From Vibrio navarrensis (GTDB lineage: Bacteria; Pseudomonadota; Gammaproteobacteria; Enterobacterales; Vibrionaceae), in assembly GCF_015767675.1 (NCBI RefSeq), contig NZ_CP065217.1:372001-436000 (forward strand): 64,000 bases of DNA. The letters run 5' to 3'. The notes beneath the pieces were generated by a model that saw only the letters and a list, made by a program, of their open reading frames with translations, had not been told where the DNA came from and did not search any database. The stretch's first letter is position 1; each line of letters starts with the position of its first letter. Both the position numbers and the translations under genes were made by a program. Below, piece after piece: positions 9,194 to 48,488 of this stretch.

Positions 9194-11524
9194 CTAATTG
9201 TTCAAGTAGAAAGGACGACCATAGACGATGGAATTATCGGCATCTTCCAGCTCTTTGGCGGCGGTATAACTTCTGTTTTTGGTGGCAAAGCCTTGAATAC
9301 CAAAGTTAACACTGATGTTGGTGTCGTAAACCGGGTCATTGTTGTCACCGCCGACCACGTTGTTTTTCCACTTCACTAATTGATTGGTGTAAGTAAAACC
9401 GATATACCAACAATCGGATTGATAACGCAGACTCGCCATCCATTCCAAGTCGATCTCTTCGGTCAAATCATAATAATATTGGCCACTGGCAGACCAGTTG
9501 CGGTTAATTTCATAGGCTGCGACCAGACCGGCTTGAGAGATCCCTTTACGAGTGATGGTGTCGAGATCTTCAAACGAAATGGTGTCTTCGATGTACTCTC
9601 GAGTAACGTAACGATAGTTACCTTGGACAAAACCATCTTTGAATTGATATTCCAAGGTACTGTTGGCCAATTGCATCGCATTAAGGTCGATGTCGTACTG
9701 AACCCCACCGTGATAAAACAGATAGTCGTCGTAGTTAAAATCGGTTTCAATTGCCCATGAAGAGTAGTTCGACGTTTCCTCTTTATCGCCCGTTAGCTTG
9801 GTGTTTTTGTCGATGTAGTAGATCTGACCAAAGGAGATGTTGAGTCGCTCCTTATACTCATCGTCAAAAAAGCGCGTACTGGCACCATAGCTGAGCTGAT
9901 TGGCAGGAGCAACTTTGTCGATGCTGCTGTATTTGCGGCTGCGAAATAGCCCATAGTAGTCAGTTTGCAGCAAGGTTGTGTCGTAATTATATATATTGTC
10001 TTGCTTTTCTTCCGGTACATAGAGGTACTGGACCTGTGGCTCTAGGCTTTGGGTGAAACCGTCAAAAACTTTGGCTTCACGTTGCAAAAAAATCCGTGCG
10101 TGGCTGCGAAATTCAGGGATAACCCGAGTCACCTGCTCGTCCAATTGTGCTTGCAGGCTTGGGTCTTCCAGTTTGCTCAGTTCTTGCTGGTAATAGGTAG
10201 CTAAGACGCGCGCTTCCGTGGTCCAAGTTGCCCAAGTGGTTGACAGTGGGATGGTCAAACCGGGTTCTATGTGCGCTCGAACGGCATTAGGTTTGGCTTT
10301 GTCGAGTGTATTGAAATGACTCAGTTGGCCTTTCACATCGAAGTTGATATAACGCCCCCAAAGTGGCGTGTAGTAGTTAAATTCCAACTGGGGCAGCAAA
10401 CGATACGGCTTATTGTTGTCTTCCAATAAGATCTGGAAGTCCCGCACCAGAACAGAGGCATCCCATGAGTTAGAACGGTAAGCTACCTTCCCCTCTTGCA
10501 CTAGCTGGCCATCTTCTCGGTTACCCAAATCGGATTTGAGATCGCGGAAATAATCGATGTCGCTGACTTTGGAGTAGTCAAGCTTCACCAGCCATTGCTG
10601 GTCGATAATGCCATCGTGTTTGTATTGATAGCCCCAACGATCCTCTTCCGCGTATTTTTCATCGCCCGGGAGATATTCGCCTTTGATTTCGCCGCCACCC
10701 CATTGACTGGTGAGATAACGGAAATCCGAGTCCAATTTTACTCCGCGCTGTTGCATGTACAGAGTGGTCAGTGTCAGATCATAGTTAGGTGCGATATTCC
10801 AGTAGAAAGGAATTTCCGCTTCGACACCATCGCTCGAACCATAAGAGACGGAGGGAAAAAGAAAGCCCGTTTTGCGTGTGTTGCCAATCGGCAGAGTTAA
10901 ATAAGGCACGTAGAAAATCGGCACATCCATCACTTCAAAGCGTGGATTGTAAAACGTCGCCGTTTCTTCATTTTGGTCAACGTCGATGCTTGATGCGACC
11001 AGGCGCCAAGCGTTGTCGTCTGCCGGGCAAGAGGTTATCGAGCCATCTTGCAACTGGTATACGGCTTGTCCGGTCTTGGCGATGTACGCGGCTTCACCGC
11101 GACCTTGTTGGCAAAGGAACTGGTATTGGGTGTTTTCCAGCGAGAAGGTTTCTTGTGCCATGTTGTTGGTGACGCGGCTAGAGCTGGCTTTCACCTCGCC
11201 ATCGTTAAACGTGACGTTGCCTTCGGCCACGACCACTTGTTCTTGTTGATGCAAAGTGACCGAATCGGCAGTGATTTTTTTCTTGCCTTGAATGACTTCC
11301 ACATCGCCCGAGTAGACGGCTTTATCGCCATTAATCGCTTGTAGACGGTCTGAGTGCACCACAATCGGCGCATTGGCATCATTTTCTTCTGCGCTGACCA
11401 AACATTGATCTATAGTGGGCATTTCCTGCACACTATCACCGAGTGTTGTTTGGGCTTGTGTGTAAGGGACAAACAGGGCGGTACTGATAGAGGCCGCTAA
11501 AAAAGTGCGGGAGAAATGTTGCAT
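9194..11524 (-). CDS. lptD: LPS-assembly protein LptD
   Basis: Outer-membrane beta-barrel that, with LptE, inserts lipopolysaccharide into the outer leaflet. A signal peptide (1-24) is followed by an N-terminal OstA/beta-jellyroll domain (about 50-160) and a large barrel ending in an aromatic-rich terminus. Four cysteines are seen: C41, C138, C166 and C705. E. coli LptD has a pair of adjacent cysteines near the C-terminus; here only one (SDCWYIG) is present. It is the first gene of lptD-surA-pdxA-rsmA-apaG-apaH and diverges from djlA. Confidence 0.96.
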
Positions 11525-14204: not shown

Positions 14205-15605
14205 TTATTTCCAATCTCGAATATCAACAAAATGGCCGGCAATCGCTGCTGCTGCTGCCATGGCTGGGCTCACCAAGTGGGTACGACCATCACGTCCTTG
14301 TCGCCCTTCAAAGTTGCGGTTGGACGTGGACGCGCAGCGCTCTTGCGGTCCTAGACGATCGTTGTTCATCGCCAGACACATTGAGCACCCTGGCAACCGC
14401 CATTCAAAGCCTGCTTGTTTAAAAATAACATCCAAGCCTTCAGCTTCCGCTTGCGCTTTCACCTGTTCAGAGCCCGGAACGATCAGCGCTTGCACATGTG
14501 ACGCCACTTTGCGCCCTTTGGCGACACTGGCGGCAGCGCGCATATCTTCAATTCGCGAGTTGGTGCACGAGCCGACAAACACTTTGTCGACTTTATAGTC
14601 AGAAAGCGATTTGCCCGCTTCAAGGCCCATATAAGCCAGCGCTTTTTCTGCCGAGGCTTTCTCGACCGGGTCGCTGAAGCTTTCAGGTGCAGGAATCGGC
14701 TCGTCTACTGCGATCACTTGGCCCGGGTTGGTGCCCCAAGTCACTTGTGGTTTGATTTCTGCTGCGTCGAGTGTGACCACGGCGTCAAAGGCGGCATCTT
14801 CATCGGTTTTGAGTGTTTTCCAATACTCCACTGCCGCTTCAAAATCAGCACCTTGTGGTGAGAATTTACGACCTTTAATGTACTCGAAAGTGGTCTCATC
14901 TGGCGCAATTAAACCGGCTTTTGCGCCAAGTTCAATCGCCATGTTGCACACGGTCATGCGGCCTTCCATCGACAGGTCAGTAATCGCTTCACCACAGAAT
15001 TCGACCACATAACCCGTACCGCCAGCGGCGGTGGTTTTGCCGATGATGGCTAACACGATGTCTTTGGCGGTGATGCCTTCGGTCACTTTGCCTTTGACTT
15101 CGATTTTCATGGTTTTGGCGCGCGCCTGCTTGAGCGTTTGTGTGGCGAGCACGTGCTCCACTTCTGACGTGCCGATACCAAAGGCGAGCGAGCCAAACGC
15201 GCCATGAGTCGCGGTGTGTGAGTCCCCACACACAATCGTCATACCTGGTAACGTGATGCCCAACTCTGGCCCCATGACGTGTACAATGCCTTGATATTTA
15301 TGGTTTAAGTCATACAGAGTGACACCAAAGTCCAGACAGTTTTTGATCAGCGTTTCCATCTGAATGCGTGCCATCTCGCCGGACGCATTGATGTCTTTGG
15401 TGGTGGTAGAGACATTGTGATCCATAGTGGCGAAGGTTTTGCTCACCTGACGTACTTGACGTCCTTTTTCACGCAAACCATCAAAGGCTTGTGGGGAGGT
15501 CACTTCGTGAACCAAGTGGCGGTCAATGTACAGGATCGGGGTTTCCCCTGGCGCTGCAACGGCGACATGCGCATCGTAAACTTTTTCGTAGAGTGTTTTG
15601 CCCAT
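14205..15605 (-). CDS. leuC: 3-isopropylmalate dehydratase large subunit
   Basis: Aconitase-superfamily subunit carrying the [4Fe-4S] cluster of isopropylmalate isomerase. The three cluster cysteines are visible in [13 protein letters not shown] and in GCSMCLAMN. The 466 residues are the standard length and the N-terminus [13 protein letters not shown] is typical. It lies 19 bases downstream of leuB and forms the active enzyme with LeuD. Confidence 0.97.
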
Positions 15606-18771: not shown

Positions 18772-19422
18772 ATGGCGGAAAAACGCAGAGTAGGGCGACC
18801 AAGTAGTAACACCGATGCGCGTAAAAAGTTGATTGACCATGCGCGGGATCTGTTTGTGGTCATGGCGTATGACAAAGTCTCAACGCGGTTGATTGCGCAA
18901 AAAGCGGGGGTCAACAGCGCTTTAATTCGCTACTACTTTGGCAGCAAAGAAGGGCTGTTTGAAACCATGTTAAGAGAGACGTTAGCGCCGATGCAGAAGA
19001 AAATGCAGCAGTTGGTCATGGAGAGCACTGAGCGCAATCTGCTCGACATTATGAAAACCTACTATCGTGAAATGGTAAAAATGCCGCAATTTCCGCGTTT
19101 GATCGTTCAGGTGATGCACATGCCGCCCTCAGACATTCAACGTCGGCTGGTGGAAAAAGTCTTTTTGGATATCACCCAACCGATGCAAGAAATGTTGTTT
19201 GGCAAATTGGCCAGCAGTGGCGTGATAAACCCTGAAAGGGATCCGCAGCTCTGTCGTATTTCTTACATCAGCCTAATGGTCTTTCCGTTTATTGCGCCTC
19301 CGGCGTTGCTTGCAGTGCATGGCGTTGAAATTAATGAACCGTTTTTGGAGCGTTTGGTGGAACACAATATTCAAGTGATGAAAAGCGGCTTTTTACGGCC
19401 TGAACTGGCTACGGTTCTGTAG
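18772..19422 (+). CDS. TetR-family transcriptional regulator
   Basis: 216-residue repressor-type protein with an N-terminal TetR helix-turn-helix (about 14-60: ARDLFVVMAYDKVSTRLIA then VNSALIRYYFGSKEGLF) and a helical ligand or dimer domain. The ligand is unknown. It is not the LuxR/HapR quorum regulator. It precedes a PAP2 phosphatase and a glycosyltransferase on the same strand, with a 132-base gap. Two palindromes with shared half-sites sit upstream and suggest autoregulation. The neighbours hint at control of envelope lipid or glycan genes, but this is not shown. Confidence 0.85.
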   Translation: MAEKRRVGRPSSNTDARKKLIDHARDLFVVMAYDKVSTRLIAQKAGVNSALIRYYFGSKEGLFETMLRETLAPMQKKMQQLVMESTERNLLDIMKTYYREMVKMPQFPRLIVQVMHMPPSDIQRRLVEKVFLDITQPMQEMLFGKLASSGVINPERDPQLCRISYISLMVFPFIAPPALLAVHGVEINEPFLERLVEHNIQVMKSGFLRPELATVL

Positions 19423-19554
19423 CCGTCGTAACCTGCTTTCTGCTGCATAGTACGGCAGTGCTCTGTTCACCAAATAGCCAAATTGCCTTCATTGGATTGT
19501 CATTAACCTCTTCTAGCTTAACTTTTGTACCCCAAGGTTAATAGGAAGATACTT

Positions 19555-27283: not shown

Positions 27284-29164
27284 GTGAAAGTCAGAAAACT
27301 GTTCGGCATTCTTCTTCTGATCAGCGTCTTTTTTGCAGCACTCATCGCCTTTTATTACCACGACAAATATCGCTCCCTGCTTGATGACAACCTGCAAAGC
27401 AGTGCCGAAGATGCGTTGAATCAGCTCGCTTACACTCAGCGCGAGTACACCAATCTCTACGGGCAGATGTTGTCGGTTCTCGATCTGCTCAAATATAACC
27501 AAACGCTGACAGACTTCATTCTCACTCCTGATCAAGAACACCAAGCGGCGTTAACCGATTTGTGGTCCTCAGTGCTACTCAATCAGAAGTGGTATACCCG
27601 CATTAGCTTACTGGATCTGTCGGGATATGAACGCTTTCGGGTGAACTACGATTTGAATGTGGGGGTTTTCCTCTCCCAAGCCCCAGCGCAAGATGTATCG
27701 AATGACCCGTTTTTTGCCAGTGCTCAAGCACTCAAAAATGATGAGACGGGCGTTTGGGGCGTCACGCTGGAAGAAGAACAAGGGCAACTCAAAGAACCTT
27801 ATACGCCAGTGATGCGCATCTTTGCTCCTGTCACTATCCGTAATCAGCGCGTGGGCTATCTGGTGATGAATCTTAACATTCGCTACATGGCGAGCCGTTT
27901 GCACTATTCGCCTGTGCAAGATTTTAACGTCGACATCATCAATCAACGCGGTTACTACGTGGTCAGCGATCAACCAGAGAAGCTGTTCGGGGATTATCTT
28001 CCCGAACGAGAAATTTACCGCTTTAGCAAACTCTATCCGCAGAGCTGGCAAAAGTTCTCCCAGCAACAAGCGGGTTATTTTTACGACAATAAGTGTTTGG
28101 TCGTTTTTAATACCTTAGTTCTGGGCAGTCATGGTGCGCTGCACTTAGTGATTGATATGAGTCAAGAGCAGTTGATGGCGCGCTCACAGCAGGCGGTCAA
28201 TGAGTTGATTCGTGAAGCCTTGATCGTTTTTTGTGTGGTGATGCTGTTTGTACTGCCCGTGACCACCGTCGCATTGCATTATCGCCGTCACAGTATCGAA
28301 AGTAAGTTAGCGCGCGCGGCACTCAATGGCATGACGGCCGTCATGATCTCCAATACCTCGCACCGGATCATTTTAGTTAACCGAGAATTTGAGCAGATGT
28401 TCGGTTACGACAATCAGCAGATCGAAGGCAAGCGAGCATACAACTTGATCTTTTTGAGTGATGATCTCGACATCGTGATGCAGGCTTGGAATGAGTTGCA
28501 AAAAAACGATGTGTGGGAAGGGGAGATCCGCTGCCAAACGTATTTCAATCAAGTTCTGACCGCTATCATGCATATCCAAGCCGTCAAGAACTCAGCGGGA
28601 AAAGTGAGCTACTACATCACCTCGCTGGTGGATATTACCGCGCGTAAACAGCTTGAAGAGCGGCTGCGCCATTTGAGCGAAAAAGACGAACTGACTCAGA
28701 TCTGGAACCGACGCAAGTTTGAAGAGCAATTGCAACACCACGCCAGTTTGTTGGAGCGATATCCTGCCACGCCAACAGCCTGTTTGGCCCTAGTCGACAT
28801 CGACCATTTCAAACGCATTAATGATGAGCAAGGGCATGATGAGGGCGATCGCGTCATCAAAGCCGTGGCGAGCCTGCTACTGCAAAGCCTGCGCAATACC
28901 GATTTTCTTGCGCGAGTCGGTGGGGAAGAGTTTGCCATCATCATGCCGCACACCACCATCTCAGCGGCGGAAGTAGTTCTCAACCGGCTACGTATTGCGA
29001 TTCAAGTTGCAAAAGATTTGGATGTGACAGTCAGCATCGGCTTTACCGACCTGACGGCTAACACAACCCGCAGTTACAAGTGTGCCGACATTGCCTTGTA
29101 CGATGCGAAAAGCTCCGGGCGAAATCGTGTTTCGCTTTGCTACAGTGATGACGACATCGCTTAA
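27284..29164 (+). CDS. Membrane diguanylate cyclase with periplasmic sensor and PAS domain
   Basis: Makes cyclic di-GMP from GTP. The 626 residues show a membrane span at 4-22, a periplasmic Cache-like region (about 25-300), a second span near 310-328 (ALIVFCVVMLFVLPVTTVAL), a PAS domain (about 345-455) and a C-terminal GGDEF domain. The active site reads GGEEF at 546-550, and RNTD five residues before it is an allosteric I-site, so the enzyme is probably active and product-inhibited. No EAL domain follows. The start is a GTG at 27284; AGGAAGG lies about 11 bases upstream. The sensed signal is unknown. Confidence 0.9.
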   Translation: MKVRKLFGILLLISVFFAALIAFYYHDKYRSLLDDNLQSSAEDALNQLAYTQREYTNLYGQMLSVLDLLKYNQTLTDFILTPDQEHQAALTDLWSSVLLNQKWYTRISLLDLSGYERFRVNYDLNVGVFLSQAPAQDVSNDPFFASAQALKNDETGVWGVTLEEEQGQLKEPYTPVMRIFAPVTIRNQRVGYLVMNLNIRYMASRLHYSPVQDFNVDIINQRGYYVVSDQPEKLFGDYLPEREIYRFSKLYPQSWQKFSQQQAGYFYDNKCLVVFNTLVLGSHGALHLVIDMSQEQLMARSQQAVNELIREALIVFCVVMLFVLPVTTVALHYRRHSIESKLARAALNGMTAVMISNTSHRIILVNREFEQMFGYDNQQIEGKRAYNLIFLSDDLDIVMQAWNELQKNDVWEGEIRCQTYFNQVLTAIMHIQAVKNSAGKVSYYITSLVDITARKQLEERLRHLSEKDELTQIWNRRKFEEQLQHHASLLERYPATPTACLALVDIDHFKRINDEQGHDEGDRVIKAVASLLLQSLRNTDFLARVGGEEFAIIMPHTTISAAEVVLNRLRIAIQVAKDLDVTVSIGFTDLTANTTRSYKCADIALYDAKSSGRNRVSLCYSDDDIA

Positions 29165-38905: not shown

Positions 38906-39192
38906 ATCTGTTCCCCGTTTGATGTTCTGATGAATATTGTTGTAGTAAAACGGTTCGCCAAAACCGTCTGATTGCTTAATTCACAGTCAATTTACCACAC
39001 ATTCTCCAATTGGAACTGACAACGGGTTTTTCGTGATCAGTGCCAGATTTTCTCGCCCAAGCAAACGTTTTTTAAGTGATGGCGATCAATTAATTGATAT
39101 GTAACTTAATAACGAAAAGCCAATTCTTTATTTGTCAACAAAAATAGTAGTGACAAATGTCCCACTTAAGTAAATTGTAAATAAAAATATTT

Positions 39193-40772: not shown

Positions 40773-42542
40773 TTATTTATCAAGGGCTTGATGGTGCTTC
40801 AGATACGCCTCGGCACCGCTTAGTGTCATGTATTTCGCCAGAGTCTTGTCGGGGACATCACGCAAGTCCACCACGATCAGACCATCCAGTGCGTTGTTAA
40901 ATGCAGGATCGACATTAAAGCACACCAGTTTGCCATTGAGCCCTAAATATTGCCGCAACAGCACAGGTACGCTTTTCCCTTCATCGAGACGGGCAATAAC
41001 GCGCGACAACAGTTGCAAATCGCCGAGCGCCGTCAACATACTGGTGTTCCAGCCCAAGTGTGCCTCGGGCAGCGGATTGAGTGGCTTTACATGCTCGGCA
41101 TTGGCCGTGTCATAGTGGTGCAGCGTCATCGATTGGGCCAGTAGCTGTCGCGCTGCTGGGCTGTAATCGTTACTGATGCTCACCGGACCAAACAGATGAG
41201 TGTATTGCGGATGCTGGTGGACAAAAGTGGCGATCCCTTTCCACAGCAGCAGCAGCGCGCTCATGCTGCGTTGGTATTTGGCGGTGATCACCGATCGCCC
41301 CATTTCAATCGACTGACCAAGCTGAGAAAGAAAACGCTGATCGTACTCAAACAGAGTGCGCGAGTAGAGGCCGTCAATTCCCAACTGCGCTTGCAGCTCA
41401 TCTACCAAACCAAGGCGATAAGCGCCCACTAAGCATTGCTGTTCATCGTCCCACACAAACAGATGATGGTAGTAGTGATCAAAATGGTCGATATCTATCG
41501 CGTTGCCCGTTCCTTCGCCGACCGCGCGAAAGTTAATTTCTCGCTGGCGGCCAATTTCATGCAGCAAAGAGGGGATTTGCGATGCTTTGGCACAATAGAC
41601 GCTGAACTCACCTTGTTTCAGTAACCTTGCATCGTGTGGCAGCATGGCCAACTCGCGCAGCAGCATTTTTTTGTCGAGCGGCTGCGCAATCGGTTCTTGA
41701 CTCACTGGGGGGCTGCTCGGCGTTGTTTGGCCGTCACCTCGATGCCCAAGTAAATAGGTGTTGAGGCGCAAATAACTGACCAATTGCTCGTCATTAAGCG
41801 TGGTCACTTCTTTGTATTTGATGGCTTGACCAATGGAGAGCTGGATGGGTTGGTTGTTTTTGTTCAGAAGCTCTCGCCCGAGCATCAGCGTGCGCAGCAA
41901 AGGGTGAATTTTGCCCGCCATATAAAAGTGCTGCGAATTTTGCCCATTAATAAACACGGGCACCGCGGTGGCTCTGTTCTTGCGGATCAACGCACTGACA
42001 GAGCGGCTCCAGTCTTTATCTTCCACTCGGCGCTGTTTGCGGTCGACCAGTTGCGACACCTCGCCCGCAGGGAAGACCAATAATAAGCCGCCCTGAGCAA
42101 GGTGTTTGTTGGCGTCGCGCAGTGCTTTCATATTGGATTTCATCGCATCTTTGCCTTCAAACACATCGACACCGATAAACAGCTTATCCAGCTCCGGCAC
42201 AGTTTTGAGGTATTGATTGGCTAAGATCTGCACATCGCTACGAATGGTGAGCAGTAGCTCCGCCAAAATAACTCCTTCGACACACCCAAGCGGATGGTTC
42301 GCCACCACTACCGTCGGGCCGATTTTCGGTACTGAGTCCAATGACCCGCGCGCGATATGATAGTCGATACCCAGCACTTGCAAGGTATAGCGCAGGAAAG
42401 CAGGGGTGTTGCAGCCCACTGGGCGCTGCACATAAAACTTATCCAGTTTACTCAAACCGGTCATCCACTCCGCGACATTTTCGCCGATGCCAAACGGGGT
42501 CTTACGTGGGAGACGGAAAGGACTGCTTGTTGCCATAGTCAC
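40773..42542 (-). CDS. olsF: Bifunctional ornithine lipid synthase OlsF
   Basis: 589-residue two-domain acyltransferase. The N-terminal half (about 60-270) is a PlsC/OlsA-like acyltransferase with NHPLG at 82-86 and FPAGEVS at 157-163. The C-terminal half (about 300-570) is a GNAT-like OlsB domain with LVGAYRLG near 371-378. OlsF proteins make the phosphorus-free ornithine lipids: the C-terminal domain adds a 3-hydroxyacyl chain to ornithine and the N-terminal domain adds the second. The V. cholerae counterpart (VC0489) has the same position. Two GTGACAG sites upstream suggest phosphate control. Confidence 0.87.
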   Translation of the reverse strand: MTMATSSPFRLPRKTPFGIGENVAEWMTGLSKLDKFYVQRPVGCNTPAFLRYTLQVLGIDYHIARGSLDSVPKIGPTVVVANHPLGCVEGVILAELLLTIRSDVQILANQYLKTVPELDKLFIGVDVFEGKDAMKSNMKALRDANKHLAQGGLLLVFPAGEVSQLVDRKQRRVEDKDWSRSVSALIRKNRATAVPVFINGQNSQHFYMAGKIHPLLRTLMLGRELLNKNNQPIQLSIGQAIKYKEVTTLNDEQLVSYLRLNTYLLGHRGDGQTTPSSPPVSQEPIAQPLDKKMLLRELAMLPHDARLLKQGEFSVYCAKASQIPSLLHEIGRQREINFRAVGEGTGNAIDIDHFDHYYHHLFVWDDEQQCLVGAYRLGLVDELQAQLGIDGLYSRTLFEYDQRFLSQLGQSIEMGRSVITAKYQRSMSALLLLWKGIATFVHQHPQYTHLFGPVSISNDYSPAARQLLAQSMTLHHYDTANAEHVKPLNPLPEAHLGWNTSMLTALGDLQLLSRVIARLDEGKSVPVLLRQYLGLNGKLVCFNVDPAFNNALDGLIVVDLRDVPDKTLAKYMTLSGAEAYLKHHQALDK

Positions 42543-42926
42543 CTCGAGACAGTATTGCTAAAGGCATGCTAAGGCGGCTTTGTGACAGCCAAGCTGCACA
42601 ATGATGAGGCTTTAATGACGCGCGCGTGACAGTTCAGTGAAGGGGGTAAGTTCAATGCAACAATGATTAATTTAATTGATATAAATAATCTGTTGCTCAC
42701 AAAATATACTAATTTTGCATCAAATCCTAAGTTTGGGTGTTAAGTTACAAACGCGGGATAAAAAAATAACGCATAAGTCAATAAACCTTTGTTTTGCTGC
42801 TCTGGAAAAACGGGAATCGATATCGGTTCCCGTTTCTTTTTCTTCTTCACGGCGTTTCTTAGCCTTGAAGCAATAAATACGCTATGTTTTAGCCAGTTAT
42901 CCACTTTCCCCATTAAGGACAGAATA
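42543..42926. promoter_or_regulatory. olsF / SIMPL-gene intergenic region
   Basis: 384 bases between divergent genes. Two copies of CTGTCAC (minus strand, 42582-42588 and 42626-42632) lie 44 bases apart upstream of olsF and resemble Pho-box half-sites. A TATACT box is at 42705-42710 on the plus strand. A plus-strand terminator lies at 42808-42845, before the SIMPL gene rather than after a gene. Confidence 0.5.
42808..42845 (+). terminator. Orphan plus-strand terminator upstream of the SIMPL gene
   Basis: AAACGGGAA/TTCCCGTTT, with the inner palindrome CGATATCG continuing the stem, is followed by CTTTTTCTTC. No plus-strand gene precedes it for more than 2.5 kb, because olsF is on the other strand. 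It therefore ends either a small RNA or an attenuated leader of the SIMPL gene. Confidence 0.75.
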
Positions 42927-43643
42927 ATGAAAGAGCTCAATAGTAGGGCCGCGCTGATTTTGGGTATTTCCCTGATGCTAGGCTTGGGATTGCTCGGTTA
43001 TTTTTTGCAGCAGACCGCGATTCAGTTTAAAGCGTATGAACGTGTGGTGACGGTCAAAGGCTTGTCGGAGCGAGAATATCCGGCAGATACCGTTATCTGG
43101 CCGATCCAATTTACCGTCGCCGACAACGATGTGCAGAAACTGTTTACTCGGGTTGAGAGCCAAACTGCCATCATTGAAACGTTCCTCAAAGAAGCGGGGA
43201 TTGATGAGAGCGTCACGCTCGCAGCGCCGGCAGTGATCGACAAAAAAGCGCAACAATATGGCGGTGAAATGGAGCCACAATATCGCTATCTGGCGACACA
43301 GACGATCACTGTGTTCAGCACCCAAGTGGATGCCGTGCGCCAAGCCATTAGCCAAATTGGCCGTTTGGGTAAGCAAGGCATCGTTTTCAACCAAGATCCT
43401 TACTACAACTCTGTGGTGTACAGCTTTACGAAACTTAATGATGTCAAACCCGACATGATTGAAGAAGCCACTAAAAACGCCCGTGAAGTGGCCGAAAAAT
43501 TTGCCAAAGATTCGCACAGTACCCTTGGCAAAATTCGCAATGCTTCCCAAGGTCAGTTCACGATTTATGAGCGCGATAGCAATACACCACATATTAAAAT
43601 CGTCCGAGTAGTTTCAACGGTGCAGTACTATTTGTCGGATTGA
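42927..43643 (+). CDS. SIMPL (DUF541) domain membrane-anchored protein
   Basis: 238 residues from the ATG at 42927, which follows AAGGA. One N-terminal membrane span (about 9-27, ILGISLMLGLGLLGYFL) anchors a periplasmic SIMPL domain (about 38-238), recognised by VKGLSEREYPADTVIWPI and the VSTVQYYLSD end. The family includes E. coli YggE, associated with lower oxidative stress, but its function is not settled. It is the first gene inside the variable slot next to the tRNA and has normal base composition for the chromosome. Confidence 0.82.
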   Translation: MKELNSRAALILGISLMLGLGLLGYFLQQTAIQFKAYERVVTVKGLSEREYPADTVIWPIQFTVADNDVQKLFTRVESQTAIIETFLKEAGIDESVTLAAPAVIDKKAQQYGGEMEPQYRYLATQTITVFSTQVDAVRQAISQIGRLGKQGIVFNQDPYYNSVVYSFTKLNDVKPDMIEEATKNAREVAEKFAKDSHSTLGKIRNASQGQFTIYERDSNTPHIKIVRVVSTVQYYLSD

Positions 43644-43689
43644 GCAACACAAAGGGGTAGAATCATTCTGTCCATTTGTTACCTATCGG

Positions 43690-44063
43690 TTACCCAATAC
43701 GCGGGTTAATCGCCGAACAACTATTCGCTGGCGCTGGCAATATCAACGACGATTTCAACAACCGAAGAACCCTTATATCTTTGCCGGAGATGCACCCGGT
43801 AGACCTATCGCCCATCCGAAGAAGGCATTTGCACGGATTAAGAAAGCTGCAGGGATTACTGACAACTTCCGAATTCATGATTTGAGGCATAGCTTCGCAT
43901 CGATCCTGATTAACTCAGGTAATGCCACGCTTTATGATGTTCAGCACTTATTGGGCATCAATCACCGCAGACCAGTACGAGATATGCTCATTTAGCTAGT
44001 TCAAGACTGAGGGAAGTTAGTGCGAATGTGGCGGAGTTGGTGGGGAATGTGAGCCACGGTTAG
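43690..44063 (+). pseudogene. Tyrosine recombinase (phage/island integrase) C-terminal remnant
   Basis: A frame from about 43711 to 43995 contains YIFAGDAPGRPIAHPKKAF and then FRIHDLRHSFASILINSG and VQHLLG, the box with the catalytic arginine and histidine residues of tyrosine recombinases. It then shifts frame: the catalytic-tyrosine segment TRYAHLASSRLREVSANVAE continues in another frame and stops at 44061-44063. There is no N-terminal half and no start codon of a full integrase. It is therefore a decayed fragment, probably of the enzyme that once inserted DNA at the nearby tRNA gene. Confidence 0.85.
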
Positions 44064-44209
44064 ATCTAAAAGCAGTGGGTATGTTGCTCGCTGTTTTTTT
44101 AGCATTAAGAGCATCAGGTTCATTATCACACTTGCTTGCTAGAAAGACTTTTACTTATATTGTCAATCAGATACCCTTATGACAGAAAGGTTCTCGGTGT
44201 CTGTTAGTG

Positions 44210-45148
44210 ATGAAAATACTATATAAATATGTAGAAAATCCAAATTTTATTTTGAAGGATGGGTACATCCGAGCTTCACAATTATGCGCGTTAAATGATC
44301 CTTTCGAAGGGAACTACTGTGAGGAAGGGCTAAGTAAACTTGCCGAAGAAATTAAGTTTGGTTATGGGATTGTTACAAATTTGCGTGAGTTTGTTGAAAA
44401 TAACAAACACAAAATTGGTATTGTTTGCCTTACCGAGTCTAAAGAAAACCTGTTAATGTGGTCACATTATGCCAAAGAACATAAAGGCTGTGTAATTGGA
44501 TTTATTGTTAGCTCTAAACATGAAACAGAGCCATTTCACTTATTTGATAACCTTTTTGAACATGATAATTTTGAGATAGTTCCATCACCATTCAATGGAG
44601 CATTTGAAGCAGTTAGTTACAGAAAGCAGCCAAGGTATCGCATAGATAGCTTTGATTGTGATTACTCGAACTTTCATGAAGAGCAAATTTTGTACGAGAT
44701 TTTTCAAAGAAAAAGCGATGAATGGATATATGAAAAAGAGCACAGAGCGATTTTAAGACTATCACAAGCGGATAAAGTCATTCTTACGGAAGAGGCATTA
44801 CTAACACACAGAGATCCTTCACACTTTCTAGAGATGGCGAACGATTTAAAATGCTACGAAAAAGTAAAAAATGAGCATCATTTCTTACTAGAAAAAATTT
44901 CAGATCGTTGTGAGCGGGGAGCTATGGCAGATGCATTGGAGAATTTTTCAAAACGTAGAGACGCATTATATTTGTTTAAGCTTAATAAATCATCAATTAG
45001 ATCAATAACGTATGGGTACAACTGTTCACTTATCGATAGCGCTTGTGAATTTAAAGAAATTTTCCCTACTAGATTTTTTGAACACTGGCAAACCTGTTTG
45101 AATAAGACTAGTTATACGCTTGATTTTAAAGAAATTGATTTTATTTAA
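44210..45148 (+). CDS. DUF2971 domain protein
   Basis: 312 residues, recognised as DUF2971 by the N-terminal YKYVENPNFILKDGYIRASQ, the NDPFEGN motif and the CLTESKENLLMWSHYAKEHK core (about 80-105). The family function is unknown; such genes are common on mobile elements and beside defence genes. The ATG at 44210 is preferred to an adjacent GTG; no strong ribosome site is seen. The sequence is much more AT-rich than the core genes around it, a sign of horizontal origin. It lies between the integrase remnant and the repeat patch. Confidence 0.75.
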   Translation: MKILYKYVENPNFILKDGYIRASQLCALNDPFEGNYCEEGLSKLAEEIKFGYGIVTNLREFVENNKHKIGIVCLTESKENLLMWSHYAKEHKGCVIGFIVSSKHETEPFHLFDNLFEHDNFEIVPSPFNGAFEAVSYRKQPRYRIDSFDCDYSNFHEEQILYEIFQRKSDEWIYEKEHRAILRLSQADKVILTEEALLTHRDPSHFLEMANDLKCYEKVKNEHHFLLEKISDRCERGAMADALENFSKRRDALYLFKLNKSSIRSITYGYNCSLIDSACEFKEIFPTRFFEHWQTCLNKTSYTLDFKEIDFI

Positions 45149-45410
45149 AATGTTACCCCGACTCGTCCCCATTAACACCCACAACAACAAATCCTAGATC
45201 GCTGGGTCGGTCACACCTTACTGGCCCTGTAATCTCTCTCTAAGATCCCGCCTAACTTCCTGCATGCTTTAGCTGTAATTATCGCGACGGTGCCGTCGAC
45301 GGTAATTACATCTGATTCCACTAACCCAACTCTACACCTTAACTCATAGCAGATTCGCGCTGTAATCCAGTGTGCCGTTAGTTTTTCCGGTTCCAGTATG
45401 AATCCTGTAA
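45149..45410. repeat. Repeat-bearing non-coding patch with CTGTAAT copies and a hairpin
   Basis: 262 bases without a gene. CTGTAATC/CTGTAATTA occurs in direct orientation at 45227, 45273, 45360 and 45405, in two pairs spaced 46 and 45 bases. The copy at 45273 also forms a hairpin with an inverted TAATTACA at 45303-45310: an 11-base-pair outer stem, one bulged A and a 6-base-pair CGACGG/CCGTCG inner stem. The last copy overlaps the premature end of the hipA-like gene, so this patch marks the junction of foreign DNA. Confidence 0.7.
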
Positions 45411-45632
45411 TTAGCTGCTGTTTCTGGGGTTGTGGTTGATGAGTGTGGTAATTTTCGATGCTACGTGGACCTGATCATCGAAAGGGATGTGTGGCGAAAT
45501 TGGGAAACCAGTGTGTTTCCATTCATCTTCATAGATGAATGAAAACTCTGTTTCTGTTCCGACAGGAAGAATCAAACGACCAATTTTGGTATTCGTACCG
45601 ATAAACACGTCTAACTGTTGTAACTTACTCAT
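45411..45632 (-). pseudogene. hipA: hipA-like toxin gene, truncated to the N-terminal domain
   Basis: 73 codons from the ATG at 45632, MSKLQQLDVFIGTNTKIGRL, then a HipA N-terminal-type segment ending FPISPHIPF. Full-length HipA kinases have about 400 residues or more; here the frame ends at a TAA that lies inside the CTGTAATTA repeat, and the kinase domain is absent. The start overlaps the end of the hipB-like gene by 8 bases, as in intact hipBA operons. It cannot have kinase activity. Confidence 0.78.
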
Positions 45633-45960
45633 ACCAACCGCCCTCACTGTTTCTCACGCTGTTTTCAGCTTGGGAGGTTATTTGGCTATGTGGACGAACA
45701 ACTAGTTTTAAGTCGATAAGGCGTAACGATAGCCCTAAAATATCCATGAGGACGAGTACATTGGCAAAGGTGACACTGGTATCGCCATTTTCTACCTTCA
45801 TGACTGTTCTACGAGATAAATTGGCTTTTGAAGCGAGATCATCAATACGCCAGCCTCTATCGGTGCGCTTTGAGCGAATGGCGCTCCCCAGCGTTTCCAT
45901 ACTGAACTCGGTATTCAAATCAGGCATAGGTTGTGCCTTTACCATCTTACCTTTTCTCAT
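45625..45960 (-). CDS. hipB: HipB-like antitoxin, XRE-family regulator
   Basis: 111 residues with a Cro/C1-type helix-turn-helix (about 25-80): IRSKRTDRGWRIDDLASKAN, then LSRRTVMKVENGDTSVTFAN. In hipBA modules the antitoxin binds its own promoter and neutralises HipA. The partner toxin here is cut short, so this gene is an orphan antitoxin or regulator. Direct repeats ACTTTTGTCAT upstream may be its operators. Confidence 0.8.
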   Translation of the reverse strand: MRKGKMVKAQPMPDLNTEFSMETLGSAIRSKRTDRGWRIDDLASKANLSRRTVMKVENGDTSVTFANVLVLMDILGLSLRLIDLKLVVRPHSQITSQAENSVRNSEGGWYE

Positions 45961-46117
45961 AAGTGTCTTTTAATGTACTTTTGTCATTATTGGGTCCATC
46001 TTAACATATAAGTTCACTATAACTCACTTTTGTCATGACTGTATAAGAAATTATCTATAAGTGCAATTTAAGTTACTTATGGTTGGTTTGCGAGTTTAAT
46101 CTCTCTCTTTTTTCTCT
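45961..46117. promoter_or_regulatory. Upstream region of the hipB-like gene with direct repeats
   Basis: AT-rich. ACTTTTGTCAT occurs at 45977-45987 and 46026-46036, in the same orientation 49 bases apart, and ATAAGT-N12-ACTTAT is an inverted repeat at 46057-46080. These are plausible binding sites for the HipB-like protein. Confidence 0.5.
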
Positions 46118-46264
46118 ATGAGAGATATTTATCAGCCAGAAGGACATATTTGGCAACAGCGTAGTATTCGGATTAGTATTGGAAGAAGACAGAGAAGAGT
46201 GCGTGATCGGGGCTTACCTGACCCATTACTTGACCCAAAATCGTCAGGTACAAAAAAAGGTTAG
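46118..46264 (+). CDS. Possible small basic protein next to the tRNA gene
   Basis: A 48-codon frame starts MRDIYQPEGHIWQQRSI and continues with an arginine-rich stretch (GRRQRRVRDRG) and LPDPLLDPKSSG. The biased, protein-like composition favours a real or recently lost gene, but there is no ribosome site and its end overlaps the tRNA terminator. The family is not recognised; it could be the end of a former island gene. Confidence 0.3.
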   Translation: MRDIYQPEGHIWQQRSIRISIGRRQRRVRDRGLPDPLLDPKSSGTKKG

Positions 46265-46287
46265 TAAACACTACGCTTACTAACCTT
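46251..46287 (-). terminator. Terminator of the tRNA-Ile gene
   Basis: On the minus strand, AAGGTTAGTAA pairs with TTACTAACCTT and is followed by a run of T, just after the tRNA 3' end. Confidence 0.85.
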
Positions 46288-46295
46288 CTAGAATT

Positions 46296-46371
46296 TGGTG
46301 GCCCCTATGTGACTTGAACACATGACCAATCGATTATGAGTCGACTGCTCTAACCACTGAGCTAAGGGGCC
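46296..46371 (-). tRNA. tRNA-Ile with CAT anticodon (tRNA-Ile2)
   Basis: A 76-base cloverleaf including encoded CCA. The acceptor stem is GGCCCCT/AGGGGCC, the D-arm is AGCTCAGTGGTTAGAGC, the anticodon loop is ACTCATAAT and the T-arm has GTTCAAGTC. It closely resembles E. coli ileX, whose CAU anticodon is converted to lysidine by TilS and then reads AUA; automated annotation often labels it tRNA-Met. The gene is the expected attachment site for islands at this position. Confidence 0.93.
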
Positions 46372-46514: not shown

Positions 46515-48389
46515 TTATTCGTCTAAGAAGCTGCGCAGCGTTTCTGAGCGGCTTGGGTGACGCAGTTTACGCAGTGCTTTTGCTTCGATCTGACGGATAC
46601 GCTCACGCGTCACGTCGAACTGTTTGCCCACTTCTTCTAGAGTGTGGTCGGTGTTCATGTCGATACCAAAGCGCATGCGTAGTACTTTTGCTTCACGAGG
46701 TGTTAGGCCAGCAAGAACGTCTTTAGTCGCTGCTTTTAGGCTGGTGGCCGTTGCAGAGTCGAGAGGCAGTTCGAGCGTGGTATCCTCGATGAAATCGCCT
46801 AGATGAGAATCTTCGTCGTCACCGATAGGTGTCTCCATTGAGATTGGCTCTTTGGCAATTTTCAGTACTTTACGGATCTTGTCTTCTGGCATTTGCATGC
46901 GCTCAGCCAGCTCTTCCGGTAGTGGCTCACGGCCCATCTCTTGTAGCATTTGACGAGAGATGCGGTTGAGCTTGTTGATCGTTTCGATCATGTGTACCGG
47001 AATACGAATAGTACGTGCTTGGTCCGCGATAGAACGAGTGATCGCCTGACGAATCCACCATGTGGCGTACGTTGAGAACTTGTAACCACGGCGGTATTCA
47101 AATTTGTCTACCGCTTTCATCAGACCGATATTGCCTTCTTGAATGAGGTCGAGGAATTGCAGGCCACGGTTGGTGTACTTCTTCGCGATAGAAATAACCA
47201 GACGTAAGTTTGCTTCCACCATCTCTTTCTTCGCACGGCGTGCTTTCGCTTCACCGATAGACATGCGACGGCTGATGTCTTTGATGTTGTTAACAGACAA
47301 AGAAGTTTCTTCTTCAATCGCTTTCAATTTGGCGATTGAGCGACGAATGTCTTCTTCATGTTGGCGGATTTTTTCTGCGTATGGTTTGTCAGAGGCGAGG
47401 ATCTGATCTAGCCATGCCTCGTTAGATTCGTTGCCTGTAAACAGAGCAATGAACGATTTTTTCGGCATCTTGGCGATTTCGACCGCTGATTTCATGATCA
47501 AACGTTCTTGGGTACGAACGCGATCCATTGCCGTGCGAAGCTCGTTAACCAGATGATCAAACTGCTTTGGTGTGAGACGGAATTCTTTGAATACTTCCAG
47601 CATCACTTCATGCGCTTGAGCAACCTGAGCGCTGTCGTAGCCGTGCTCGTTGATAGCAAGCTGAACGTTCTGGTAGCTGTTACGCAGTTGTGAGAACTTC
47701 TCAAGCGCCACTTCAGGATCGATGCCGATCTCTTCATCAGAATCTGAGTTTGAATCGTCGCCGTCTTCATCCTCGTCTTCATCGTCGTCTATATCGTTGC
47801 TGTCTTCATCTTCCAGATCCGCTTTGGTCAGCTCAGAGCCGATGTGTGTTGCGGTTGGCGCTGCGGTTTCGTCAGCGTTAGGATCGACAAAGCCACTGAT
47901 AAGGTCGGTCAGACGAAGCTCTTCCGCCTGAACTTTATCAAATTGCTCAAGGATGTAAGGAATGGTACCTGGGTATTCGGCAACCGAAGATTGTACTTGG
48001 TTGATACCATCTTCAATGCGTTTAGCGATGTCAATTTCGCCTTCGCGTGTTAGTAGTTCTACCGTGCCCATTTCGCGCATGTACATACGCACGGGATCCG
48101 TGGTACGGCCAATTTCGCTTTCTACACTCGAAAGTGCAGCCGCTGCCGCTTCGGCTGCGTCTTCATCGGTAATGTTTGTTTCATCACTCAATGACAGGTC
48201 ATCAGCATCAGGAGCAGTTTCTACTACTTTGATGCCCATGTCGTTGATCATCTGAATGATATCTTCCACCTGCTCGGAATCGACGATCTCAGCAGGTAGG
48301 TGGTCATTTACTTCGGCGTAGGTCAGATAGCCTTGCTCTTTGCCACGAATGACAAGTAGTTTTAGCTGTGACTGCGGATTATGATCCAT
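46515..48389 (-). CDS. rpoD: RNA polymerase sigma-70 factor
   Basis: Primary sigma factor. The ATG at 48389 (624 residues, [20 protein letters not shown]) matches E. coli; 19 upstream open codons are not homologous. Region 1.1 is followed by a non-conserved insert with an aspartate-rich stretch near 210-225, then region 2 ([20 protein letters not shown]) and the region 4.2 helix-turn-helix ([20 protein letters not shown]). It is the last gene of rpsU-yqeY-dnaG-rpoD. Confidence 0.97.
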
Positions 48390-48488
48390 AGACGGTATCC
48401 AACTTCGTAATCTGGTGAAGGAATTAGTATGCGAAATGCAAACCACTAACTATAGCAAATAAAATCGTTGCTGACTAATTAAACAGGG

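Follow-up and report, generated by a model that had tools for sequence, protein, structure and literature searches.

The window analysed here is a stretch of 64,000 nucleotides of Vibrio navarrensis (NZ_CP065217.1, positions 372,001 to 436,000). Its genome, designated G000 in our comparisons, comprises 5.1 Mb in three contigs. We consider the slot between olsF and the tRNA-Ile(CAU) gene beside rpoD, which the original prediction had taken for an eroded genomic island in the integration slot of VSP-II, an island of seventh-pandemic Vibrio cholerae. We propose that this slot probably holds the collapsed right part of another kind of element, called the twin-att element here, namely the end of a recombinase gene, a single cargo gene and a portion of the right arm, fused to a hipBA module. 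In its intact form the element has the order att - B - inverted att - A - tRNA att, where att denotes a copy of the attachment site and A and B are the segments between the copies; a free circle with two inverted attP sites is predicted from this order.

The features of the slot and its flanks, in window positions, are as follows (aa, amino acids; ORF, open reading frame).

40773..42542, minus strand: olsF-like acyltransferase gene, left core flank (Pfam and NCBIfam), used as the left marker
42927..43643, plus strand: SIMPL gene (DUF541, PF04402), lineage core outside the island, at the same place between olsF and tRNA in 9 of the 60 relatives with the interval read
43670..43741, no strand: left junction DNA of unassigned origin, common to the window and G098 (alignment)
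43742..44041, plus strand: recombinase relic, the 3' quarter (about nucleotides 887-1187 of 1200) of a gene of the P0001 family, frame broken
44207..45148, plus strand: DUF2971 cargo gene (PF11185), ORF intact, candidate anti-phage gene PDC-S31 (PADLOC)
45175..45439, plus strand: remnant of an A-side arm (the repeat patch of the original prediction), non-coding, middle missing
45411..45647, minus strand: N-terminal fragment of HipA, 78 aa (Couple_hipA), cut by the fusion at about 45440
45625..45960, minus strand: HipB antitoxin gene, intact (HTH_3; couple_hipB below cutoff), 89-94% identical to six relatives
46118..46264, plus strand: 48-aa ORF with DNA of the hipBA module beside the tRNA, coding doubtful
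46296..46340, minus strand: attachment core, the tRNA 3' half to the anticodon loop, with a rare T-stem (46307-46311 / 46319-46323)
46296..46371, minus strand: tRNA-Ile(CAU) gene, intact (ARAGORN; Rfam, 72.3 bits; E. coli annotation)
46515..48446, minus strand: rpoD, right core flank (ORF), used as a marker

Contents and layers of the slot

Both flanks are as originally described. The best NCBIfam model for the left flank is OlsF, at 413.6 bits and thus under the model cutoff of 620, and there is a Pfam match too. For the tRNA, the top E. coli matches are annotated as tRNA-Ile, and ARAGORN labels it Met(CAU). Every component that had been named between the flanks was recovered, that is, the SIMPL gene, a broken tyrosine recombinase, the DUF2971 gene, the patch and a truncated hipBA pair. 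The slot is in decay, as had been claimed: the recombinase frame is broken, the element is partial and HipA is truncated. The second tRNA 3' end (attL) reported as missing is indeed absent from the interval, and the 45-bp pattern of the tRNA 3' half has one match in the whole genome. Apart from SIMPL, the gene set does not recur in all relatives as core DNA.

The SIMPL gene had been counted among the island genes. In G038, an empty site, olsF is separated from the tRNA by nothing but SIMPL and about 112 bp (counted from the SIMPL stop codon). Because it is present at the same place in this empty site, SIMPL is core DNA of the lineage and not part of the island; therefore, the foreign stretch of the window extends from about 43670 to 46295 (~2.6 kb). 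This stretch has two layers. The left one consists of the recombinase relic, the DUF2971 gene and the patch, and the right one of hipBA and the 48-aa ORF.

The right layer is 91.6% identical between the window and G051 over 1,252 bp, compared with only 70.9% for the olsF-SIMPL flank of the same pair. In G045, the hipBA layer lies inside a larger stack, adjoining an internal copy of the tRNA 3' end. Since the identity exceeds that of the flank and the layer stands beside a tRNA-end copy in G045, the hipBA module is probably mobile in its own right. HipA has 473 aa in G098, G141, G051, G099, G055 and G045; the window copy is interrupted by the patch. The best matches of the 48-aa ORF are 68-96% identical in seven relatives, and a Pfam scan gave no match for it.

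The left layer is missing from G141 and G051. The same recombinase relic and the same left junction occur in G098, where hipA is full-length. The junction aligns neither with the intact recombinase nor with the other relics. The recombinase relic is a C-terminal fragment with PF00589 and is 88% identical in nucleotides to G092. Its closest intact recombinase is P0001 of G092 (95% amino acid identity over 77 aa of the C-terminal part), which has arm-binding, central and catalytic integrase domains. Relatives of P0001 at 84% or more are present in 16 of the 227 genus genomes; this set was drawn from 18 genomes with a match, two at 37% being omitted, and includes the relics of G057 and G071 and the broken genes of G173 and G169. 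Outside the genus, relatives at 89-95% were found in Salinivibrio siamensis and two Photobacterium species, and the search of the family gave 11 of 247 genomes at E<=1e-100. This distribution suggests that the recombinase family may have moved between genera.

A different recombinase class, of 413 aa, abuts the tRNA in four genomes, and the window fragment has no blastp match to it at E<=1. This class is putatively VC0516-like. Judged from these matches, the window relic belongs to the twin-att family; they support no link to VSP-II beyond the address, and kinship with that island is not shown.

The patch had been described as a repeat. A non-coding patch exists, but it is not tandem: no tandem repeat structure was seen, and an Rfam RNA was likewise rejected, as there was no Rfam match. 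The patch is 83-86% identical to positions 11-140 and 351-492 of the G092 arm and matches the arms of G092, G080, G057 and G166. It is the remnant of one long arm, which forms an inverted repeat in intact elements.

Four relics (that of the window together with G098, and those of G166, G057 and G071) all begin within nucleotides 835-887 of the recombinase gene. In the window, G166, G057 and G071, the recombinase tail is followed by a cargo ORF that looks intact; none is there in G098. The common start may be due to a promoter in the recombinase tail that drives the cargo. In G057, the cargo ORF is on the opposite strand and therefore counts against a promoter there. Alternatively, the start may mark a breakage hotspot near a stretch of 25-27 bp that the gene has in common with the arm.

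That useful cargo may be kept after mobility is lost is a guess. It is a plausible reading, if not one we would choose first, that the window content is a domesticated pair of DUF2971 and hipB kept by selection, its mobile history being irrelevant to its function. The cargo ORF standing intact amid the ruins of the window and of the three other relics agrees with domestication, as does the intact HipB. However, DUF2971 is not present in the two nearest relatives, G098 and G141, which means that its retention may be brief.

Inverted attachment sites in intact relatives

Six complete copies of the element were found in five genomes: one each in G170, G219 (V. splendidus 10N.286.49.F1), G109 and G092, and two in tandem in G072. 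Each copy has the order att(+) - B - att(-) - A - att(+), with 13.5 to 20.5 kb from the first to the last att. The tRNA serves as the last att(+), except in the left copy of G072, where this role falls to the left att of the neighbouring copy. Near intact recombinases, copies of the 45-bp core of the tRNA 3' half are found in both directions. The edge of the crossover is the anticodon loop: the copies are alike as far as GATTATGAG, beyond which some run on into the tRNA 5' half and others into an arm or other DNA. Copies of att in both orientations on one contig occur in eight of the 16 genomes with a recombinase of the family (G109, G072, G170, G080, G219, G092, G078 and G113) and in none of the 211 without it. 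Both orientations were counted in ten genomes in all, from which G094 and G145 were excluded, their copies lying on different contigs. Among the 11 recombinase copies on contigs with the tRNA, eight point toward it and three away; copies lacking the tRNA on their own contig were left out of this tally. Segment A was thus seen in both orientations. An assembly error is unlikely, because four of the five assemblies consist of 2-5 contigs.

The att copies are accompanied by inverted arms. On the A side, the arms measure 637-966 bp and are 98.5-100% identical in five copies; on the B side, they measure 173-194 bp and are 100% identical in the same five. In G219, the A-side arms measure 609 bp (95% identity) and the B-side arms 193 bp (88%). 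When arms of fixed length were compared (600 bp on the A side and 150 bp on the B side, gaps left out), identity within an element was 97.8-100% (A) and 100% (B) in five of the six copies, and between elements at most 96% and 93.5%. The tandem copies of G072 each have their own matched type of B-side arm. We propose that such matching argues for continuing exchange between the two att sites.

Two further features of the arms can be described. In G092 (interval 19025-19516), the arm has a run of short CTGTC-like repeats resembling protein-binding sites; the window patch lacks this portion of the arm. An arm stretch of 25-27 bp (e.g. G080 interval 10119-10143 and 15131-15157) is 96% identical to about nucleotides 783-808 of the recombinase gene, just upstream of the relic cuts.

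The relation of the intact form to the window is illustrated by Vibrio sp. 05-20-BW147 (G094), which shows 90% identity to the window in its tRNA-rpoD DNA. One of its contigs reads olsF - SIMPL - 113 bp - att - B, another A - tRNA - rpoD, and the 113-bp stretch is collinear with the empty site of G038. Therefore, a related species carries the element in exactly this slot. By this alignment, G094 marks the expected place of the window's missing attL, and that stretch is gone in the window. The inverted att pair and segment B are absent from the window as well; the relic keeps the right part of A only.

Segment A encodes a 129-aa protein with no Pfam match, the recombinase, and cargo that varies and is often anti-phage. 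The PADLOC scan covered nine of the 22 listed A cargo ORFs and the DUF2971 gene of the window. Six of the nine gave matches, namely a retron reverse transcriptase, PtuA and PtuB in G170, a SIR2/ThsA-like protein in G109, and PDC-S31 with a weaker PDC-M43B in G072; the other three had no PADLOC match. The DUF2971 protein of the window matched PDC-S31 (E 1.6e-21).

Segment B encodes a marker protein of 154-160 aa whose gene lies close to the left att and has one and the same direction in all seven copies with the left end read. The sole deviation is the broken B of G080, where the marker gene is at the other end. A 290-aa protein is present in six of the seven copies, and the one scanned has a WYL domain. 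The polymerases of B belong to family A in all three cases tested (PF00476; 5.2e-44, 1.2e-12 and 1.6e-18). The 129-aa protein of A and the 160-aa protein of B match two PHROGs, both without an assigned function. Among the 11 of 48 B ORFs tested, none was recognised as a capsid or packaging gene.

The tRNA itself appears to carry a scar. Compared with the nearest relatives, the window tRNA has eight differences, every one of them in the T-stem (ATGTG/CACAT), and this T-stem type is found in eight of 329 family genomes. It occurs in the tRNA of G173 beside an element, in the internal att of G092 and G169, in both kinds of copy in G078, and in the tRNAs of G000, G047, G166 and G239. The element carrier G078 has the rare T-stem in its tRNA and in the inner inverted att, but the common CCCAG type in the outer att; this would be expected of an element that brought in the rare T-stem and displaced an older one. 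On a rough tree of 660 bp of core DNA, the T-stem type changes at least 13 times across 56 labelled genomes, five of the 61 having been left unlabelled.

Predicted mechanism and alternative explanations

We propose that the tyrosine recombinases would use the 3' half of tRNA-Ile(CAU) as attB, with the crossover in the anticodon loop. Excision would restore a circle with two inverted attP sites, and upon integration through one attP the second would become the inner inverted att. The inverted sites could then recombine, turning segment A round or exchanging it. Segment B would replicate the circle, and hosts may retain defence cargo after the rest of the element decays. The arrangement may serve switching, cassette exchange or amplification.

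The yeast 2-micron circle has two unique segments, parted by long inverted repeats that hold the site of its tyrosine recombinase. The likeness of the twin-att family to it lies in this anatomy and in the two orientations of A. In contrast, the family is bacterial, integrates in a tRNA gene, and has a polymerase and defence cargo. It is a tentative idea, which we consider doubtful, that the element is a bacterial counterpart of the 2-micron design. According to this idea, the circle would encode its own family-A DNA polymerase and carry long co-evolving repeats that contain the two inverted attP sites. Its tyrosine recombinase would park it in the tRNA gene and would also flip or swap the defence segment via inversion, cassette exchange or recombination-driven amplification.

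Several observations weigh against the twin-att reading. The circle, its excision and the inversion are predicted from comparative sequence alone. No free form of the element was found among phages (INPHARED, E<=1e-40) or viral contigs (IMG/VR), and among PLSDB plasmids (E<=1e-60) there was just one relative, at 37%, on one plasmid. The arms of G219 do not match as the others do (95.7% on the A side and 92.8% on the B side at the fixed lengths). In this genome, A is reversed and there is an additional att copy, a pattern that would fit the exchange of one segment. The single direction of B is a further difficulty, because it would not be predicted if two equal attP sites were used freely. The P-loop proteins of B have weak helicase-like Pfam matches, and the helicase label rests on these. 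Finally, the rare T-stem is found, in the pattern described for G078, in the tRNA of the G166 island, which has a different, broken recombinase class, and in the window it adjoins the hipBA module, not an element arm. For these two reasons, the T-stem is not proof of the twin-att family; its use as such a proof is weakened by G166, and the T-stem appears to travel with islands, not with the twin-att family alone.

An improbable alternative is that A alone is mobile, as a transposon-like unit with terminal inverted repeats of ~1 kb ending in tRNA halves, B being unrelated DNA trapped between copies. The longest repeats are those of the A arms, which reach 1,015 bp with the core included, and some draft contigs hold A and end inside the A arms (L153 and L155), so that A on its own is conceivable there. 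However, trapped DNA is difficult to reconcile with B-side arms that are pairwise identical in five of the six copies, with a marker gene common to all seven left ends, and with the 290-aa WYL-type gene in six of them. The direct orientation of the left att is likewise what one would expect if A and B together formed the unit. Least probable is an ordinary eroded VSP-II-type island with a direct att pair, the inverted arms of relatives being accidental island stacking: the address is that of VSP-II and stacks with direct att copies do occur here (e.g. G080, G045 and G166), but the recombinase differs from the 413-aa class, both arms at the inverted att match their own element's partner best in five of the six copies, and the G072 tandem copies each hold their own matched B-side type.

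The tRNA-rpoD hotspot in Vibrio

The tRNA-rpoD segment was found in all 148 genus genomes in which it was sought. The pattern of the tRNA 3' half matched in 215 of 227 genus genomes, with more than one copy in 36; some second copies may be whole tRNA genes. For the olsF-tRNA interval, one olsF match was taken per genome, and genomes with only a 55-58% paralogue (one 42%) elsewhere were omitted. This gave pairs in 80 genomes, of which 61 were usable; in 14 the markers were on different contigs, in four the order or strand was wrong and in one they were 218 kb apart. The 61 intervals range from 177 bp to 51.7 kb. Recombinase ORFs akin to three seed proteins occur in 13 of them and form at least three classes, and additional partial tRNA copies lie inside nine. 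The claim that the slot recurs beyond V. cholerae therefore stands, but it is not new, since the hotspot has been in print since 2006 (PMC1464126).

The olsF-tRNA distance was rejected as a measure of island size. Because a core block from ispB to djlA lies inside 14 of the 61 intervals (e.g. L062-L065), interval length overstates the island count. The genes of this block are presumably ispB, rplU, rpmA, obgE, folA, apaH, ksgA, pdxA, surA, lptD and djlA. Its position between olsF and the tRNA indicates that chromosome order differs among Vibrio lineages.

The rpoD site itself varies in other ways. In G048 (interval ~27466-27965), ARAGORN found no tRNA at the rpoD site, where there are only fragments of the 5' and 3' tRNA halves, as if the gene had been split. 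A distinct CAU tRNA (~82% over 71 bases) occupies the site in G085, G132, G068 and G111, suggesting replacement of the whole gene. In G101 (C7:2267000-2271310), the distance from the rpoD end to the tRNA is ~3.7 kb, which points to an insertion between the tRNA 5' side and rpoD. Elsewhere in the window, at 38911-39033, lies the MtlS small RNA (Rfam RF02268, 117.5 bits).

Pipolins target tRNA genes and have tyrosine recombinases. Like the twin-att element, they are described as integrative and as carrying their own DNA polymerase (PMC7385651). They differ in having PolB, whereas the three polymerases tested here are of family A, and the two inverted att sites are a further difference. PICMI and other phage satellites of Vibrio resemble the element as small integrative elements of Vibrionaceae, going by their description in PMC10803314; PICMI differs in that no capsid or packaging gene was recognised in the B ORFs tested here.

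According to PMC1464126, VSP-II, VVI-I and VPaI-1 all lie at the tRNA beside rpoD, named tRNA-Met there, and the hotspot is common to V. cholerae, V. vulnificus and V. parahaemolyticus. In seventh-pandemic V. cholerae, VSP-II (reviewed in PMC12409362) thus has the same site as the relic of the window, and its integrase-driven excision is known (PMC12409362, PMC1464126). The recombinase of the relic does not match the 413-aa class beside the tRNA, and the VSP-II genes mentioned in the description of PMC12409362 include none of the relic's genes. VPaI-1 of V. parahaemolyticus and VVI-I of V. vulnificus share the tRNA and the variable cargo with the twin-att family, and VPaI-1 has a 45-bp direct repeat; inverted att copies are not mentioned in their description (PMC1464126). 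No match for inverted attP pairs or PolA elements in Vibrio was found by title or abstract start in the open-licence literature, which does not establish their absence from print, and passages of PMC8138268 contain no description of a two-att plan. Within these limits, the two-att plan is unusual for a bacterial genomic island.

The hotspot is usually read as a site for ordinary direct-repeat islands. The swapped T-stems suggest that repeated integration rewrites the tRNA 3' half across the genus, and a T-stem scar can hint at past integration once attL is gone. If the twin-att reading is true, a recurrent family with two inverted, closely matched att regions and replication genes of its own would mean that integrative elements have to be drawn and sought in a different way. 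Tools designed for one attL and one attR would mis-map twin-att elements. The same arrangement would provide a route for cassette exchange of defence cargo without losing the element.

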